DNA from: a virus
IMG/VR virus record: IMGVR_UViG_3300042565_000201
Location: 1 to 27,219 of that record
Length of the DNA stretch: 27,219 bases
Direction: 5' to 3' (one strand)
Of the stretch, positions 5,048 to 13,740 are shown piece by piece (position 1 is the first letter of the stretch; each line of letters begins with the position of its first letter). A program made the translations under genes and the position numbers. The notes beneath the pieces were generated by a model. That model was not told the DNA's origin, searched no databases, and saw only the letters and a program-made list of their open reading frames with translations.

Positions 5048-5070
5048 AAACCTCAACCAAAACAAAGAAA

Positions 5071-5099
5071 AGGCCTCGGAAACGGGGCCTTTTTATTTT
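5071..5099 (+). terminator. Intrinsic terminator after major capsid gene
   Basis: AGGCCTCG (5071-5078) pairs with CGGGGCCT (5083-5090) as an 8-base stem with one G-U pair, closed by a GAAA tetraloop (5079-5082) and followed by TTTTTATTTT at 5090-5099. This is a textbook rho-independent terminator. The A-rich stretch before the stem could let it act on the reverse strand as well. Confidence 0.92.
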
Positions 5100-5104
5100 G
5101 CCTA

Positions 5105-5133
5105 TTGACGTTAGGTGGGTTTACGATTAAATT
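5105..5133 (+). promoter_or_regulatory. Candidate sigma70-type promoter for the homing endonuclease unit
   Basis: TTGACG (5105-5110, five of six matches to TTGACA) is separated by exactly 17 bases from TAAATT (5128-5133, four of six matches to TATAAT) in an AT-rich stretch directly after the capsid terminator. An AAGGA ribosome site lies at 5151-5155 before the GTG start at 5163. Predicted only. Confidence 0.6.
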
Positions 5134-5162
5134 AGTTTTGTATTTAAAATAAGGAAAACCCC

Positions 5163-6131
5163 GTGGTCTCGTGCATCTATAAAATCATTAATCTGGCAAA
5201 CCGTAAATTCTATATCGGTAGCACAAAGTACTCTAAAGATAGGTTCCGTCAGCACCGAAAATTACTGCGGAACAATCGCCACCATTGTAAGCACCTACAA
5301 GCCTCTTGGAATAAACATGGCGAGGACGCATTTGTTTTTGAGATAGTGGAGCGGTTAGAACCACATTTACTGGAAGCACGAGAAGACGAATTACTCAAGC
5401 AGTGGTACGGAGATAGACGCCTCTACAACACGGGTTCCTCCGCTCGCGCGCCGTTTCGCGGTGTCTATGGAGCTAAGCATCCGCAATTCGGTTTGCCAAA
5501 GAGTGAGCAACATCGCGCCGATATATCTCGGACTCTTAAAGAGTTTTACGCTGAAGATTATTTTAATCATCCACGCGTAGGTAAAAAGCACAGCGAAGAA
5601 TCGAAAGAAAAAATGCGGCGCAACGCTGCTTCGTTTAAAGGGGAGAACCACTACCGCTATGGTCAAACCGTATCTGAAGAAGTCCGCAAAAAGATTGGCG
5701 ATACCCAACGTGGCGTAAAGAAAGGTCCGCGAACACTTACGCCTGAAGGGTACCGGAAGATATGCGACGCCGCGGCTAAACGCCGTGGACTACCAGGTAC
5801 GCCAATGTCGGCAGAACTACGGGAGAAGCTAAGTAAGCGCGTGCGTGTCGTCGGCCCGGAGTTCAATCAAATCTTCCATAGCGTCACCGCAGCCTCCGAG
5901 CATTTGAAGGTTCCGTCGTCTGCGATATTTCCACACTTGAGTAAAGATTCATGCCACTGGCGCGGCAAGTTGAAAGGTTGGTTTTTCTCCTATGATCTTT
6001 CTGAAGAAAAAGCCCTTGAAATGTGCGATCCACTGTGGCAGGATCAGAAGATACTAGCCTGCAAAAATCGGCCAGATAAGAAGCGGTGCGGGCGAAAGCC
6101 TCTTGACGCTCTTACCCTTTTGTGCGTATAG
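5163..6131 (+). CDS. GIY-YIG homing endonuclease with NUMOD-type DNA-binding repeats
   Basis: A 322-residue protein. The GIY-YIG nuclease domain fills residues 1-90: CIY at 4-6 (a variant of GIY), YIG at 17-19, Arg27, His31 and His40, a downstream Glu near 76 and Asn89, in the spacing of I-TevI catalytic residues. Residues about 100-215 hold several NUMOD3-like elements (GLPKSEQHRADISRT, VGKKHSEESKEKMRRN, GQTVSEEVRKKIGDTQRG). About 225-275 resembles a NUMOD1/HTH module (FHSVTAASEHLKVPSSAI). Such free-standing enzymes cut a site in intron- or gene-less relatives and spread by repair. The start is GTG with AAGGA 7 bases before it. It is not inside an intron or an interrupted gene. All key nuclease residues appear intact. 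Confidence 0.9.
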   Translation: MVSCIYKIINLANRKFYIGSTKYSKDRFRQHRKLLRNNRHHCKHLQASWNKHGEDAFVFEIVERLEPHLLEAREDELLKQWYGDRRLYNTGSSARAPFRGVYGAKHPQFGLPKSEQHRADISRTLKEFYAEDYFNHPRVGKKHSEESKEKMRRNAASFKGENHYRYGQTVSEEVRKKIGDTQRGVKKGPRTLTPEGYRKICDAAAKRRGLPGTPMSAELREKLSKRVRVVGPEFNQIFHSVTAASEHLKVPSSAIFPHLSKDSCHWRGKLKGWFFSYDLSEEKALEMCDPLWQDQKILACKNRPDKKRCGRKPLDALTLLCV

Positions 6132-6995: not shown

Positions 6996-7294
6996 TGACC
7001 GCGCGGCGCATTACGCTTTCTGAAGCAGAACTCGAAGCCATGATGGAGCGCGCGGCTAAGTCGGGCGCACATGAAGCCCTGTCAGAACTTGGACTGTTCG
7101 ATATTGACGATCGACCAGCCGCAGCACGTGACATAAAAGATTTACGTGATATACTTAAGATATTCAGAGACATTCAAACCGACGCCGTAAAGGGGTTGTT
7201 TGCTTGGCTCGGTAGAGGGGTTATCACCGTGATAATTTTTGGCGCAGTTGTCTGGATGGCTCGCGGCGGGATTGTAATCGAGGCACCAAAATGA
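6995..7294 (+). CDS. DUF6127-like single-pass membrane protein
   Basis: A 99-residue protein from ATG 6995, which shares TAATG with the preceding stop. An upstream in-frame ATG at 6977 would add six residues and overlap more. Residues 8-66 are charged and helical (ALSELGLFDIDDR; DIKDLRDILKIFRDIQTD), and residues about 74-90 form one hydrophobic membrane helix, ending in a short tail. This order (helical cytosolic part, arginine, C-terminal membrane helix) and the wording resemble DUF6127 proteins of alphaproteobacterial phages and prophages. It lies directly before the holin with an ATGA overlap, so it may be a second holin, antiholin or pinholin-type partner. That role is inference only. Confidence 0.65.
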   Translation: MTARRITLSEAELEAMMERAAKSGAHEALSELGLFDIDDRPAAARDIKDLRDILKIFRDIQTDAVKGLFAWLGRGVITVIIFGAVVWMARGGIVIEAPK

Positions 7295-7542
7295 CAGAGG
7301 TTACAACAAAGCCCCGCTGGGTCTGGCGTCGCGTATTAACCTACTTCGGCTTCACGGCTCTGTTAGCCATCGCTGCCGTCGGAGTGTTCCGTACTCCTGA
7401 TCCTCAGTGGGTGGCTATCGCGGCTATCATTAGTGCCTGGCTCATGCACACAGTATATGTGACGTCGGCAACCTTTGAAGACTTCACTCGTTTGACGCGC
7501 GCAGCGGCAGAAGGTATTCAGGCCGCACGAGGAGATGGCTGA
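7291..7542 (+). CDS. Holin, two membrane helices
   Basis: An 83-residue protein with a basic N-terminus (KPRWVWRRVL), a hydrophobic helix at about 15-33, a short polar turn (RTPDPQ), a second hydrophobic helix at about 40-60, and a charged C-terminal tail. Two helices, small size and position immediately before the lysozyme (TGATG overlap) are the class II holin pattern. Holins form lesions in the cytoplasmic membrane at a set time and let the endolysin reach peptidoglycan. Sequence family not identified beyond this. Confidence 0.75.
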   Translation: MTEVTTKPRWVWRRVLTYFGFTALLAIAAVGVFRTPDPQWVAIAAIISAWLMHTVYVTSATFEDFTRLTRAAAEGIQAARGDG

Positions 7543-7982
7543 TGACTGACATCAAACGAATCGGTAAAGCAGGTCTTGACCTTATCAAAGAATTTGAAGG
7601 TCTGAAGCTACGCGCGTATCTGTGCCCTGCAAAAGTGTGGACTATCGGCTACGGCTCGACAGGTCCGCACGTCACTGCCGGAAAAGTCATCACGAACGCT
7701 GAAGCAGAAGACTTGCTCAAGGAAGACTTGGCTCGATTTGAACGCGCTGTCACGGGTTTTGTTACCGTCCCGCTTACCCAGAACCAGTACGACGCTCTGG
7801 TATCGTTTGCGTTCAATGTCGGCATCTCGGCCTTGGAACGTTCCACCTTGCTGAGGCGCGTAAACGCCAAGCGGTTCGACGACGTACCCGCGGAGTTTCT
7901 TAAATGGAACCGCGCGGGAGGCCGTCCTCTTGCGGGCCTGACACGCCGTCGGGCTGCTGAAGCCGCGTTGTTCAAGTCATGA
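7542..7982 (+). CDS. Endolysin, GH24 lysozyme (muramidase)
   Basis: A 146-residue GH24 lysozyme that hydrolyses the MurNAc-GlcNAc bond of peptidoglycan. The catalytic region is residues 17-40: Glu19 in EFEGLKLRAY, Cys28 in YLCPAK, and Thr34 in WTIGYGST. The spacing of 9 and 6 residues equals T4 lysozyme Glu11, Asp20 and Thr26, so the Asp position is occupied by Cys, a substitution known in several phage members of this family. The C-terminal lobe has LTQNQYDALVSFAFNVG and the typical end WNRAGGRPLAGLTRRRAAEAALF. No signal-anchor is seen, so export depends on the holin. The stop overlaps the spanin start. Confidence 0.93.
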   Translation: MTDIKRIGKAGLDLIKEFEGLKLRAYLCPAKVWTIGYGSTGPHVTAGKVITNAEAEDLLKEDLARFERAVTGFVTVPLTQNQYDALVSFAFNVGISALERSTLLRRVNAKRFDDVPAEFLKWNRAGGRPLAGLTRRRAAEAALFKS

Positions 7983-8356
7983 ACAAATATCTAATCGTCG
8001 CGATCGCTATACTCACAGGCGTATCATCTGCCCTTGGCTGGTTCTTATATAACCAAATCCAAGAAAACGGTATGTTGAGTAAAGAACTCCAAGATATGGC
8101 TGGTGAGTTAGAAGCGCAAAGACTGGCGGCTAAGCTCGACCAACAAGAAGCGCGTGACAATTACGAAGCCTCCAGTCGATCTTGCCAAAACGCTATTAGG
8201 TCTGCGGTGGAAGCCGTGCGCCTTAAACCAATCGAGGTTCCACGATATGTTGAGAATGGCGATCCTAATCCCTTGTGCCCTGCTATCAGCTTGCGCGACG
8301 CCCAAAATTCTGGAGTTGGACCGTTCGTGCCCACCGGCCCTGACAGCAAAGATTGA
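7979..8356 (+). CDS. i-spanin (Rz-like inner membrane spanin)
   Basis: A 125-residue protein with one N-terminal membrane helix (about residues 4-24, YLIVAIAILTGVSSALGWFL), a periplasmic coiled-coil-like stretch (ELQDMAGELEAQRLAAKLDQ) and a proline-rich C-terminus. Rz proteins anchor in the inner membrane and bind the outer-membrane lipoprotein Rz1 to fuse the two membranes in the last lysis step. Position right after lysozyme and the overlapping lipoprotein frame support the call. The family has little sequence conservation, so it rests on architecture. Confidence 0.82.
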   Translation: MNKYLIVAIAILTGVSSALGWFLYNQIQENGMLSKELQDMAGELEAQRLAAKLDQQEARDNYEASSRSCQNAIRSAVEAVRLKPIEVPRYVENGDPNPLCPAISLRDAQNSGVGPFVPTGPDSKD

Positions 8357-8492
8357 GCCCGAACCTGTAGCTCCTGCGGATGCGCTTATGAACGAAGTGG
8401 CTACGGTGTTCATAGCCTCCGAGTTGATACCGTATATGCGCCGGAACATCGAACGACTTGATCAAGGTCGTGCGTGGTGTCTTAAAAAATGA
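8247..8492 (+). CDS. o-spanin (Rz1-like outer membrane lipoprotein), overlaps Rz
   Basis: An 81-residue lipoprotein in a different frame, overlapping the last 110 bases of the i-spanin gene. ATG 8247 is chosen because GAGG lies at 8234-8237, 9 bases upstream. The frame is open further upstream but that part only encodes Rz shadow sequence. The signal peptide MLRMAILIPCALLSAC ends in a lipobox LSAC with the lipidated Cys at residue 16, followed by a Pro/Ala-rich periplasmic part and two charged helical segments. It pairs with the i-spanin across the periplasm. The TGA overlaps the ATG of the next gene. Confidence 0.82.
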   Translation: MLRMAILIPCALLSACATPKILELDRSCPPALTAKIEPEPVAPADALMNEVATVFIASELIPYMRRNIERLDQGRAWCLKK

Positions 8493-9682
8493 TCCGCTCT
8501 GTTGATCCGGTTGAAGACGCCAAGGATGACCTTGACGCGCTTAAGCCATTTGCGACAGACCGTCAGCGTGAATATATCGACGCTATTCTGACCTATGGCG
8601 GGATGAAAGCGGCAAGCAAAGTCCTCGGCGTTTCGCATACAACAATCAGTAAAGCCATCAAAGCCACCCGAATTAAAGCCGCCATGCAGGGCCACTCGCC
8701 CAAGCATGACATGGTTCATGACGTTCCAAATCCGTTTATCGTCAAGGGCGTCTCGACCTATTATAATCGCGATGGTGTAGCGGCTGGGCAGTGGGTTAAG
8801 TCCACCTTAGACCAATCCGCCTATCAAGCCGCATTGCAGGCGATGGCTGACGGTATATCGGCAGGTATCACGCCGCGGGCTACGATACCAAAACCGACAG
8901 AGGTAGATACTGATCTACTTACGATTTATCCATTAGGAGACCCCCACTCGGGTCTTTACTCGTGGATCAAGGAGACGGGTCACACGTTCGATCTAGCCGA
9001 GTATGAGCGTATCAATACGCTCGCTATCGACGCGATCATGTTGGGTTCTCCTAAGAGTGACACTGCTTTGTATATCGACCTTGGTGATACCGTTCACGCG
9101 CATGACGATAAGAAGCGAACGCCAGGATCAGGGCACTATCTTGATGTCTCGGGCCGTATCTGTGAAGCCATCGAAAGCTCCTTCAAACTTAAAACCTATC
9201 ATATCGACAGATTATTAGAGCATCATAACAATGTGATCTTCAGGCTTAACCGCGGCAATCACGATCCCGTTACAGCCGTCGCAATCTCGGGTATGGTTCG
9301 TGAGCGTTACAGGCTTAACCCACGCGTCACTGTCGTTGATCCATACAACCCGTACTGGTATTACGAGTTTGGTAAAGTCATGATCGCCACTGCCCATGGC
9401 GATGGGGCGAAGGCTCCTCAGATGGGTCCGGTCATGGCAAACGATCAAGCCGAGATGTGGGGGCGGACTAAACATCGCTACTGTTTCTTGGGCCACGTTC
9501 ACCACTGGAAGGGTGAGAATTTCCCCGGCGTCACGGTAGAATACTTCGGAACCTTAGCTGCACCAGACTTCTACAGCCACCATGCTGGGTACAGATCGAC
9601 GCGAGAAATTAAGTCGATTACGCTCCATAGAGAACACGGCAGATGGGGCAGCGTAGAACGGAACGTTTCTGCATTTGCGTAA
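8489..9682 (+). CDS. Calcineurin-like metallophosphoesterase with N-terminal HTH
   Basis: A 397-residue protein. Residues about 25-62 form a helix-turn-helix (GGMKAASKVLGVSHTTISKA), probably DNA binding. The metallophosphoesterase domain from about 140 has all core motifs: GDPH at 150-153, GDTVH at 199-203, GNHD at 256-259, HGD at 303-305, GHVH at 335-338. These bind two metal ions and hydrolyse phosphodiesters. Comparable phage proteins are often annotated as SbcD-like or metallophosphatase, but the real substrate is unknown. It sits between the lysis and fibre genes and shares an ATGA with Rz1. Its last 17 bases are the first copy of the downstream intergenic repeat. Confidence 0.85.
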   Translation: MIRSVDPVEDAKDDLDALKPFATDRQREYIDAILTYGGMKAASKVLGVSHTTISKAIKATRIKAAMQGHSPKHDMVHDVPNPFIVKGVSTYYNRDGVAAGQWVKSTLDQSAYQAALQAMADGISAGITPRATIPKPTEVDTDLLTIYPLGDPHSGLYSWIKETGHTFDLAEYERINTLAIDAIMLGSPKSDTALYIDLGDTVHAHDDKKRTPGSGHYLDVSGRICEAIESSFKLKTYHIDRLLEHHNNVIFRLNRGNHDPVTAVAISGMVRERYRLNPRVTVVDPYNPYWYYEFGKVMIATAHGDGAKAPQMGPVMANDQAEMWGRTKHRYCFLGHVHHWKGENFPGVTVEYFGTLAAPDFYSHHAGYRSTREIKSITLHREHGRWGSVERNVSAFA

Positions 9683-9854
9683 CTTATCAGGTAGTCATAG
9701 TCACGGTATGAACCTATGATAAAATATGAAAACCACCTATCTGCATTTGCGTGATTACCTCAGACGGTAAAATTTGCAGGTAGAGCCGGTATAAAGCCCC
9801 CTGTTTATCGCGAACAGTAAGATTTATGGACAAATCATTTCTGCATTTGCGTAA
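9666..9854 (+). repeat. Three spaced copies of CTGCATTTGCGT, first in the end of the phosphoesterase gene
   Basis: CTGCATTTGCGT occurs at 9669-9680, 9741-9752 and 9841-9852. Copies one and three agree over 17 bases, TTTCTGCATTTGCGTAA (9666-9682 and 9838-9854). Spacings are 72 and 100 bases. After copies one and two the sequence also shares CAGGTAG and CGGTATRAA, so the unit may be a longer diverged module. I found no other copy elsewhere in the window by eye. Not CRISPR-like: three units, uneven spacing. Confidence 0.85.
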
Positions 9855-9922
9855 TTCCAACTATAGCTTTATCTGCGTGGCTGGTGTAGTAGGGACTTGA
9901 CAAACTAAATCGGGAGATTCCC
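9683..9922. other. Noncoding gap between phosphoesterase and fibre region
   Basis: The longest stretch without a gene. It is AT-richer than its flanks and holds two of the three repeat cores, a candidate promoter, and short hairpins such as TTACC/GGTAA near 9755-9770 and CTGTT/AACAG near 9801-9817. None is followed by a T run, so no terminator is called. A CGGGAG ribosome site at 9911-9916 serves the small gene at 9923. Confidence 0.6.
9692..9720 (+). promoter_or_regulatory. Candidate sigma70-type promoter with overlapping dyad
   Basis: TAGTCA (9692-9697, four of six) and TATGAT (9715-9720, five of six) are 17 bases apart. A 6-base inverted repeat, TCATAG (9695-9700) and CTATGA (9714-9719), overlaps both boxes and could be an operator. 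It lies in the 240-base gap before the fibre genes. Predicted only. Confidence 0.45.
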
Positions 9923-10321: not shown

Positions 10322-10765
10322 GTGTCTAAAACCGACGCTTGGGAAAACGCCCTACTTCTGTTGTTGTTCAATAACACCAACGCCGCAAACATTGGCGATG
10401 CGACAGGCTTGCGCGGTTCTTCGACTGCCGGCACCTTGTTCTTTTCGCTGCATACAGCAGACCCTGGTGAAGCAGGAAACCAGACCACGAACGAGGTTTC
10501 TTACGGAAGCTATGCCCGTGTGTCAATCAACCGCGCTTCAGGCGCAGGCGGCTTTACTGTAACGGGCGCTAGTGTTTCTCCAACCACGCAACCTGTCAAC
10601 TTCGCGGCTTGTACCAGTGGCTCTGCAACCGCTACTCACTTTGGTATCGGCACTGCTTCGAGCGGTACGGGAGTGCTGTTGTACAAAGGTGCGCTAAGCG
10701 CTTCTATCGCTATTTCCTCTGGCGTTACGCCCCAAGCGCAGACCGTTACCGTTACGGAAGACTAA
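10322..10765 (+). CDS. Virion / tail-fibre-associated protein
   Basis: A 147-residue protein starting at GTG 10322 with AAGGAG upstream. The N-terminal part (LLFNNTNAANIGDATGL, SLHTADPGEAG, YARVSINR) is a pattern shared by many phage proteins annotated as tail or fibre structural proteins, and the C-terminal half is Ser/Thr/Ala-rich beta sequence. It opens a run of appendage genes. Probably a virion surface or fibre-linked component; exact role unknown. Confidence 0.7.
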   Translation: MSKTDAWENALLLLLFNNTNAANIGDATGLRGSSTAGTLFFSLHTADPGEAGNQTTNEVSYGSYARVSINRASGAGGFTVTGASVSPTTQPVNFAACTSGSATATHFGIGTASSGTGVLLYKGALSASIAISSGVTPQAQTVTVTED

Positions 10766-10768
10766 TCC

Positions 10769-11584
10769 ATGACGGTTCTCGTCGATCTCGTTCAGCAAAC
10801 TACGGCCACTACGGGCACTGGCACCATCACACTTGGCGCGGCGGTAACGGGCTTCCGCACGGTTGCGGGGGCTGGGATTGCTGATGGCGTTGTCGTGTCC
10901 TATGCCATTCAAGACGGTACTAATCGCGAGACCGGAACGGGCACGGTCGGCAGCTCTGGCACGACCCTGACGCGAACGCTTCTGGCCTCTAGCACGGGTT
11001 CGCTCTTGAACCTTAGCGGCTCGGCTGTGGTTGGGATCGCGCCTAATGCAGTGGACTTTGTTTTCACAGGCAAACAAACGATCTTCATCCCAGCCTCGGC
11101 AATGCTTCCGCGCATCACCAATGGGCCAAGCCTTGGTTCGCTGGAGACCGCCACCAATCGCGTCAACGTCTCAACGCTGGACTTCGATCCAACCACACAA
11201 GAGTTCGCGCAGTTCCAGATCGCCATGCCTAAGTCATGGGATGAAGGCACGGTGACTTACGAGGTTATTTGGTATCATCCAGCTACGACGACTAACTTCG
11301 GCGTGGTTTGGTCTCTAGCAGGCGTTGCCCTGTCAGACACCAATGCTCTGGACACGGCTTTTGGAACAGCGGTTCAGGTCACTGATGCCGGCGGCACGAC
11401 AAATGCGGTCTATGACAGCCCCGAAAGCGGCGCGGTTACGATTGGCAACACGCCTGCCGAGAACGACTATGTGATATTCCAGATTGCGCGTGTTCCGGCT
11501 GACGGCTCTGACACAATGGCTGTCGATGCACGGTTGTTGGGTATTCGTCTATTCTACACGACTAACGCAGGGAATGACGCCTGA
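10769..11584 (+). CDS. Tail fibre / virion structural protein
   Basis: A 271-residue beta-rich protein. Residues 1-95 (TATTGTGTITLGAAVTGFRT, then SYAIQDGTNRETGTGTV and LTRTLLASSTGSLLNLSG) form an N-terminal module I have seen in many phage virion proteins. A middle strand-rich part (FIPASAMLPRI; FQIAMPKSWDEGTVTYEV) precedes a C-terminal jelly-roll-like domain with FQIARVPADGSD. The second half resembles head-fibre or receptor-contact domains. The TGA overlaps the start of the glycine-rich gene. Confidence 0.7.
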   Translation: MTVLVDLVQQTTATTGTGTITLGAAVTGFRTVAGAGIADGVVVSYAIQDGTNRETGTGTVGSSGTTLTRTLLASSTGSLLNLSGSAVVGIAPNAVDFVFTGKQTIFIPASAMLPRITNGPSLGSLETATNRVNVSTLDFDPTTQEFAQFQIAMPKSWDEGTVTYEVIWYHPATTTNFGVVWSLAGVALSDTNALDTAFGTAVQVTDAGGTTNAVYDSPESGAVTIGNTPAENDYVIFQIARVPADGSDTMAVDARLLGIRLFYTTNAGNDA

Positions 11585-12426
11585 TGTTGCGGGTCAATAA
11601 CCTTAATGGTTTTGGGGCGCGGCGCCTGCCAATCATTAACTATCTGCTTGTCGGCGGCGGTGGTGGTGGCGGCGGTTTCGGCGGCGGCGGTGCTGGTGGG
11701 CAGGTTCAGACTGGAACCGTAACCCTAACAGCCGGACAAGTACTTACTATTGAAATAGGTACGGGTGGTAACGGCGGATCGTCCTCGCGTACATCTGGGA
11801 CAGCAGGCGGTGTAACAACCGCGACTGGTCTACCTTCCGCGCTAGGTGGAACGGGCGGCGGCGGGCTTGATATTAACGGCTTCAACGCGAACGGGACAAC
11901 GACCGCCAACGGTTCTGGTGCGGGTCTTTATGGCGGCGCGACGGGCGGTAGCGGTGCGGCTGGCGGCTTTGCTGGCGGCGGCTCCCCAAGCAATGGCGCT
12001 GGCGGCGGCGCTGGTGCGGGTGGCGCAGGGTCCAATGGCGGAGCGGGGGTTTCGGGTGCTGGCGGCGCAGGCATCGACTCGCCAATCTCTGGCACCTTAA
12101 CAAATTACGGCGCAGGCGGTGGTGGCGGCGGCAACGGGGATACCGCTGACCTGATCACGGCAGGCGCGGCTGGTGGCTCATCTGGGGGCGCAGGACAACA
12201 AGCTGCCGCAGGGGGTAACGCCCCGGCAAACCGAGGCGGCGGTGGCGGCGGAAGCGGTCAAGATGCGTCGTTAAACAACTTTGCGGGCGGAAACGGCGGT
12301 AGCGGTGTGACGATTTTCACCTACCCAACTGGCTCAATGACCGCGACGGGCGGCACAATCACCACGAGCGGCGGTAATACTATCCACGCATTTACGTCAA
12401 ACGGCACCTTCACGAGGACGGCGTGA
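11584..12426 (+). CDS. Glycine-rich tail/fibre protein
   Basis: A 280-residue protein with a short lead, then NYLLVGGGGGGGGFGGGGAG near residues 20-39 and long stretches of Gly, Ala, Ser and Asn up to about 235, ending in a beta-rich tip (GSGVTIFTYPTGSMTATGGT then FTSNGTFTRTA). This is the glycine-rich domain type found in phage fibre ends, where polyglycine helices can pack into a receptor-binding tip as in the S16 gp38 adhesin. Related domains also occur in other secreted proteins, so adhesin function is inference. G+C is high partly because of glycine codons. Confidence 0.75.
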   Translation: MLRVNNLNGFGARRLPIINYLLVGGGGGGGGFGGGGAGGQVQTGTVTLTAGQVLTIEIGTGGNGGSSSRTSGTAGGVTTATGLPSALGGTGGGGLDINGFNANGTTTANGSGAGLYGGATGGSGAAGGFAGGGSPSNGAGGGAGAGGAGSNGGAGVSGAGGAGIDSPISGTLTNYGAGGGGGGNGDTADLITAGAAGGSSGGAGQQAAAGGNAPANRGGGGGGSGQDASLNNFAGGNGGSGVTIFTYPTGSMTATGGTITTSGGNTIHAFTSNGTFTRTA

Positions 12427-12881
12427 CCCAACTACAAGAATACGCACTGATCCAAAACAACCAGATCATCCGCACCGAGTGGTTCAAGCGGCCTAGCCTT
12501 GTGCCTGCCGGTGACTGGTGCGTGGTTGGTGAGGTCACGCCTGACTTTGATCCTGCGACGCACCAACTCGGCAGCAAAACCTTGCAGGTGCTGGAAGACG
12601 ATACAGTGGCCTATGTATGGTCTGTCGTTGAATTGCCGCCTCCGCAAGTGCCAGATCAAATCCAAATGTGGCAGGCTCGTGCAATCCTGTTTCGGTCTGG
12701 CTTACTCGGCCAAGTCGAGCAGGCGGTAAAGGCGGCAACCAATCCCGAAATCGAAATTGCGTGGGAATATGCGCCAAACGTGGTGCGGCAGTCTGCTTTC
12801 GTCTCGGCAATGGCTGCGGCCATCAATCTCGACAACGCAACAATCGACAACCTGTTTATCGAGGGGGCTAAGATCAGATAA
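12423..12881 (+). CDS. Tail fibre assembly-like protein
   Basis: A 152-residue protein from GTG 12423, overlapping the stop of the glycine-rich fibre gene. The N-terminal half is short strands with a QEYALIQNNQIIRTEWF opening and a proline hinge (ELPPPQVPDQ). The C-terminal half is helical (MWQARAILFRSGLLGQVEQA, then AWEYAPNVVRQSAFV and INLDNATIDNLF), the build of small proteins encoded after phage fibres that act as fibre assembly chaperones. Position right after a fibre tip gene supports this. Function in this phage not proven. Confidence 0.6.
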   Translation: MTQLQEYALIQNNQIIRTEWFKRPSLVPAGDWCVVGEVTPDFDPATHQLGSKTLQVLEDDTVAYVWSVVELPPPQVPDQIQMWQARAILFRSGLLGQVEQAVKAATNPEIEIAWEYAPNVVRQSAFVSAMAAAINLDNATIDNLFIEGAKIR

Positions 12882-13321
12882 TGGCTGACATCATCGCTGA
12901 AAAAGTTGCGGAGTTCGATGCCGCGCTTCCAGATTGGGAGGTCGCGCGCATCCTCAACGAACCCGACGAGACGCTCCCAGAAATCGTCGAGATCCAGTCG
13001 AAACTGATTGGGCCGGGGCTAATCATGGAGACGCTCGGAGCGGACGCAGGGGCGGCTGTGCTCGACGCGCTGGAGGTTCTGGCCCAGAGCATCCCGCGCG
13101 TGAAGTGGGCGATGCTCCTCATCAAGGGTGCAGGCGCGGATGCCGGGTCGGAAATGGTGCGCGATCAGATGGACGCACTGGCGACCCAAGGCGTGATTAC
13201 CGCCGCACAAGCTGACGCGGTAAAGCGGCTTGGCGAAATTCGACGTCAGCCTTCTTGGGCGGAACATAACAATATCGAGGTCACGGCGCGAACCGTTGGC
13301 TTGGCGCGAGGAGGTGTATAA
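12881..13321 (+). CDS. Hypothetical helical protein in fibre cassette
   Basis: A 146-residue, mainly helical, slightly acidic protein (LPDWEVARILNEPDETLPEI; TLGADAGAAVLDALEVLAQ) with IPRVKWAMLLIKGAGADAGS in the middle. No membrane segment or signal. Both ends overlap neighbours by one base (TAATG type). Coding bias is strongly GC-rich. I do not recognise the family well enough to name it; an assembly factor or minor virion protein would fit its neighbours. Confidence 0.65.
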   Translation: MADIIAEKVAEFDAALPDWEVARILNEPDETLPEIVEIQSKLIGPGLIMETLGADAGAAVLDALEVLAQSIPRVKWAMLLIKGAGADAGSEMVRDQMDALATQGVITAAQADAVKRLGEIRRQPSWAEHNNIEVTARTVGLARGGV

Positions 13322-13740
13322 TGGCAGTCGCAAAATGGGCTTCACCCGGGTCTCGCTCGTCGAACCTCGCTGGCACCGCGCTCAATTCGCTGGCCAACGG
13401 CTCGGCATCATCGCTGATCAGTTATGACAACAGCAGCAACCGTGACCTCTACGCGGCGGTGGCCGTCAAGCTTGGGTCGATCACTCCGGGCACGGGCGGC
13501 AGCGTCACGCTGCGGGTCTATGCGGGCGACGGGACGGACCTGCCGAACGCGAACGGCGGGGCCTTTGACAGCTACACGGCGGCGTTGGCTTCTGGCGCGT
13601 CTGCGAAGGTTGTCACGTTCCCGATGGTGCGGCTCTACCCCTTTCCCTGCCGCTTGCAGATTGTGAACAATGCTGGCGTGTCGTTCGCCGCGAGCGCGAA
13701 TGAACTGTACGTCCGCACGTATAATGAGGATGTCAGCTAA
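13321..13740 (+). CDS. Virion structural protein, beta-rich
   Basis: A 139-residue protein with a very good GGAGGTG ribosome site overlapping the previous gene end. It is low in charge and beta-rich (DLYAAVAVKLGSITPGTGGS; VTLRVYAGDGTDLPN), ending NNAGVSFAASANELYVRTYNED. The end pattern is shared by small proteins in tail regions of alphaproteobacterial phages and prophages as I recall them. Probably a fibre or baseplate-type small subunit; uncertain. Confidence 0.65.
   Translation: MAVAKWASPGSRSSNLAGTALNSLANGSASSLISYDNSSNRDLYAAVAVKLGSITPGTGGSVTLRVYAGDGTDLPNANGGAFDSYTAALASGASAKVVTFPMVRLYPFPCRLQIVNNAGVSFAASANELYVRTYNEDVS

Follow-up and report, generated by a model that had tools for sequence, protein, structure and literature searches.

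Several directly repeated protein-binding words within one gap are found among the R sites of lambda cosB and in iterons. In environmental phages there is also a recurrent gene order in which a phosphoesterase (PE) gene, an attP and a tyrosine integrase follow one another (loci L184, L197, L212, L169 and L165). The repeats described here lie behind the PE gene of a podovirus-like phage, represented by a record of 27,219 bases that is a fragment of the virus genome; by "window" we mean this whole stretch of DNA. The head genes are similar to the ones in Planktothrix phage Pag-Yong1, DSL-LC04 and Pelagibacter phages HTVC027P/HTVC023P, the capsid identity being 54-61%, and no phosphoesterase annotation was present in the stretches, some of them partial, that were read downstream of the capsid gene in these phages. 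The genes of the window follow the order lysozyme, other lysis-region genes, PE, a gap of 240 bases, two small genes and the fibre module, and the post-PE gap is AT-rich (41% GC versus 54%). The features discussed below are listed by position.

7291-9682, plus strand: lysis-PE block; its relatives in contig L250 are a gene of 83 aa (63% identity), the lysozyme (85%) and PE (82%)
8489-9682, plus strand: HTH-metallophosphoesterase gene (PE), phrog_704, annotated as a DNA repair exonuclease
8549-8674, plus strand: HTH-like segment of PE (aa 21-62), with 45-48% aa identity to L250 and L110 versus 83-93% past aa 62, as if swapped
9666-9682, plus strand: repeat copy 1, TTTCTGCATTTGCGTAA, exact match; the final 17 bases of the PE gene, stop codon included
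9741-9752, plus strand: repeat copy 2, the 12-base core CTGCATTTGCGT, exact match
9805-9820, plus strand: 16-base element TTATCGCGAACAGTAA / TTATCGCGAACRGTAA, between copies 2 and 3, common to the L250 gap at 15 of 16 bases
9838-9854, plus strand: repeat copy 3, TTTCTGCATTTGCGTAA, exact match; 17 of 17 bases the same as in copy 1
9864-9882, plus strand: possible degenerate copy 4, TAGCTTTATCTGCGTGGCT, weak, with a PWM scan score of 7.1 versus 31-32.5 for the true copies
10322-13740, plus strand: fibre module, beginning with a head fibre gene (PF23140, Gp80-like); exchanged separately, with parts 81-91% identical in nucleotides to L025

Elsewhere in the window, a GIY-YIG/NUMOD3 homing endonuclease follows the capsid gene (5048-6131), preceded by an apparent terminator and promoter of its own; this endonuclease is absent from L110, a relative with a 94% capsid match, whose contig stops inside PE. 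Two relatives of PE, L256 and L257, come from circular records catalogued as non-mobilizable plasmids (Methylobacterium and Sulfitobacter), which are possibly phage-plasmids.

Repeated words behind the phosphoesterase gene

The initial annotation of this DNA had noticed that the final 17 bases of PE recur 172 bases downstream, with a 12-base core copy in between, and both observations are exact (9666-9682 and 9838-9854 for the longer word, 9741-9752 for the core). The core occurs three times in the 27,219-base record, to which all copy counts apply, with starts at 9669, 9741 and 9841 and start-to-start spacings of 72 and 100; the whole-record search returned no further exact copy. A word of 13 bases, TCTGCATTTGCGT, is common to all three copies, and beyond 12-17 bases the similarity between them breaks off sharply on either side. 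The possible copy 4 begins 26 bases past copy 3 and ranks seventh among ~54,000 positions in the PWM scan.

Outside the post-PE gap, no stretch of 400 bases in the window contains any 12-mer three times. In 2000 dinucleotide shuffles of positions 9653-9922 the longest word present three times did not exceed 8 bases, as compared to the 13 observed, and thus the repeats are not due to chance; the longest repeated pair was 17 bases, as compared to 14 in the same number of shuffles. The three words are real and non-random, and probably bind protein. The further proposal of a partly duplicated module fared less well: CAGGTAG (9688, 9777) and CGGTATRAA (9704, 9787) both recur, identically ordered, after copies 1 and 2, but CAGGTAG lies 19 bases from the core after copy 1 and 36 after copy 2, and the distance from CAGGTAG to CGGTATRAA is 16 bases in the first case and 10 in the second. 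With such unequal spacings a collinear duplicated module is not supported. A structured RNA in the gap was also considered and rejected, the predicted stability being that of shuffled sequences (z = -0.13), with no match in Rfam.

Relatives of the gap and exchange of modules

The near-identical contig L001 keeps all copies of the repeats, with 3 changes in the 240 bases of the gap and none in the repeats themselves. This conservation says little on constraint because the genomes of the window and L001 are mosaic: in the block 8640-9480 the PE catalytic region is up to 25% divergent (in bins of 120 bases), while the backbone is nearly identical. L250, by contrast, has a related lysozyme-PE block (lysozyme 85%, PE 82% identical) and zero copies of CTGCATTTGCGT. 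The direct repeats that the L250 gap does contain are weak (2 of 40 shuffles score as high).

What the L250 gap does share with the window is the 16-base element, with a single mismatch; in 12 shuffles the best 16-mer had at least 3 mismatches. The element together with the related lysozyme-PE block points to the acquisition of the lysis-PE-gap segment as one module, which judging from these sequences is probably what occurred; the lysozyme and PE genes would then travel together with part of the gap. The fibre module is exchanged separately, since L025 is similar to the window in this module but its upstream genes, in a genome that carries a tyrosine integrase, are unrelated to those of the window. 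The earlier placement of protein-binding-type repeats at a module boundary is borne out by both comparisons, with a relative of the lysis-PE-gap block in L250 on one side and the separately exchanged fibre module on the other.

Other searches for the gap were negative: a scan of IMG/VR with the 17-mer gave 19 contigs, which apart from L001 are apparent coding or chance matches; the capsid relatives searched contain no additional copy; PE is absent from the head-fibre relatives; and blastn of the gap against phages found nothing. Pairs of the core encountered in genomes were rejected, as the repeats are unrelated.

A possible attP-like region and the competing explanations

Direct repeats after the PE stop codon were scored at 82 PE loci, with L001 entered as L163. 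Strong repeats (z from 6.8 to 22) are found in the window/L001 and at L165, L169, L184, L197 and L212; in all five of the latter a tyrosine-integrase ORF begins no more than 320 bases away, although the one in L169 falls below the Pfam cut-off. Among the 8 loci whose integrase lies within 600 bases, 5 have repeats of this strength, as compared to none of 73 others (Fisher p = 2e-6, or 4e-5 when two borderline loci are counted, optimistic values in that the counts include related loci). A tRNA T-arm lies in the repeat-bearing gap of L184, L212 and L169, which identifies an attP, and L184 has a complete tRNA-Val gene. As far as can be seen, post-PE repeats in this gene neighbourhood are attP arms.

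This association with integrases at other loci is the main reason for the explanation that we tentatively favor, with a probability of roughly 0.4, namely that the repeats of the window are the arm-type sites of an attP-like region orphaned by the lack of its integrase. The comparison is an anatomical analogy. The three words would be protein-binding-type sites in a compact region behind PE, carried in as the tail of the lysis-PE module from a temperate-like phage. Their arm-like traits would be the direct words of 9-13 bases from or near the PE stop, the span of ~190 bases and the enclosed central element, TTATCGCGAACRGTAA, which is a candidate core; in a working site, the integrase would contact the arms through its N-terminal domain and the core through its remaining domains. 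The span, orientation and position of the repeats in L165, L169, L184, L197 and L212 resemble those of the window, and sharp edges at 12-17 bases fit binding sites. We infer both the identity of the repeats as arms and the direction of the transfer. No integrase is present in the window, in L001, in the 30-kb contig of L250 or in the genomes of five isolates whose capsids are related, which weighs against attP arms and would leave the site orphaned; it may be a relic, may have been co-opted, or may depend on an enzyme encoded beyond the fragment. The window gap has no tRNA or T-arm end, and inverted core sites were also sought in it, the single match, a weak one, lying away from the shared element. 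Further points against attP arms are the spacings of 72 and 100 bases and the weakness of the direct repeats in the L250 gap; in addition, the copies are identical, whereas a long-dead relic should have decayed, and copy 1 overlaps a coding end, SAFA*, that is retained in L250 without the repeats.

The same word length and sharp edges would also suit operators at which a DNA-binding protein of the phage, perhaps PE itself by way of its HTH, would act, either on the gap or on the fibre genes beyond it. This HTH was read from sequence; no Pfam model matched aa 21-62 of PE. Between the window and L250 no other part of PE has diverged as much (45% identical, versus 85-93% for the segments past aa 62), and the repeats differ along with it; L001 pairs exactly the same HTH with exactly the same repeats despite a different catalytic domain. 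However, only two classes can be compared in this way, the PE loci other than those with a nearby integrase include none with clearly strong repeats and two that are borderline, and there is no good promoter beside the copies. We consider operators possible but doubtful.

A functionless scar, in which slippage, template switching or recombination at a module boundary placed two copies of the 3' end of PE downstream, is unlikely, even though seeding of the repeats from the gene end is in itself plausible on sequence grounds. PE ends in SAFA* in both the window and L250, with each codon spelt differently, and the exact spelling in the window has p ~0.004 under its codon use; this suggests either that the copies in the gap derive from the end of the gene or that the end of the gene converged on the motif, and the conservation of SAFA* in L250 with different codons makes copying from gene to gap the simplest direction. 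The region also sits between exchanged modules and adjoins a mosaic PE. The seeding in the original recombination-scar suggestion is plausible, but the sharp stop at 12-17 bases in both directions and the two separate exact copies downstream are unusual for a duplication that is not under selection.

We attach very little weight to a scheme in which the HTH-phosphoesterase would be a site-directed nuclease at TTATCGCGAACRGTAA, recognising phage-specific repeats beside its own gene, with HTH and repeats swapped together. Slightly less credible still are the tandem phage promoters proposed early on, with a TTGCGT -35-like box per copy: the AT richness of a gap upstream of fibre genes and two weak sigma-70-like matches past copy 1 are in their favor, but no consistent -10 lies at 16-18 bases from the three boxes or at any fixed distance from the copies, and other gaps of the window read as ordinary terminators/promoters without the word. 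Least likely of all is a cosB- or iteron-like packaging or replication site, for despite direct repeats in an AT-rich gap beside a gene with an HTH-like domain, the portal gene is >8 kb upstream, no packaging or replication gene adjoins, and the spacings, judging from the anatomy, are not helically phased.

Comparison with known systems

If the favored explanation holds, a lysis-phosphoesterase cassette passes from one phage to another, across temperate-like and apparently virulent types, with an end-of-operon site attached, and this would help to mark where modules meet. The PE-attP-integrase order is a practical aid for annotating temperate phages, and a real pairing of HTH and repeats would offer a handle on the function of a widespread phage phosphoesterase.

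As in the lambda cosB R sites and iterons, the window gap holds several directly repeated words predicted to bind protein; it differs in that no terminase or initiator gene adjoins it. The post-PE gap of L250 has in common with the window the related lysozyme-PE block and the TTATCGCGAACRGTAA element, but it contains no CTGCATTTGCGT; its PE closes a late operon and faces, past a hairpin, a leftward RecT operon. With respect to the attP of L184, L197, L212, L169 and L165, the window is without an integrase and a tRNA core, and the repeats of the first three are tandem pairs of 11-12 bases rather than words spaced by 72 and 100; the likeness to all five consists of direct repeats (9-12 bases in these attP) right behind the PE stop, a similar span and a central element.
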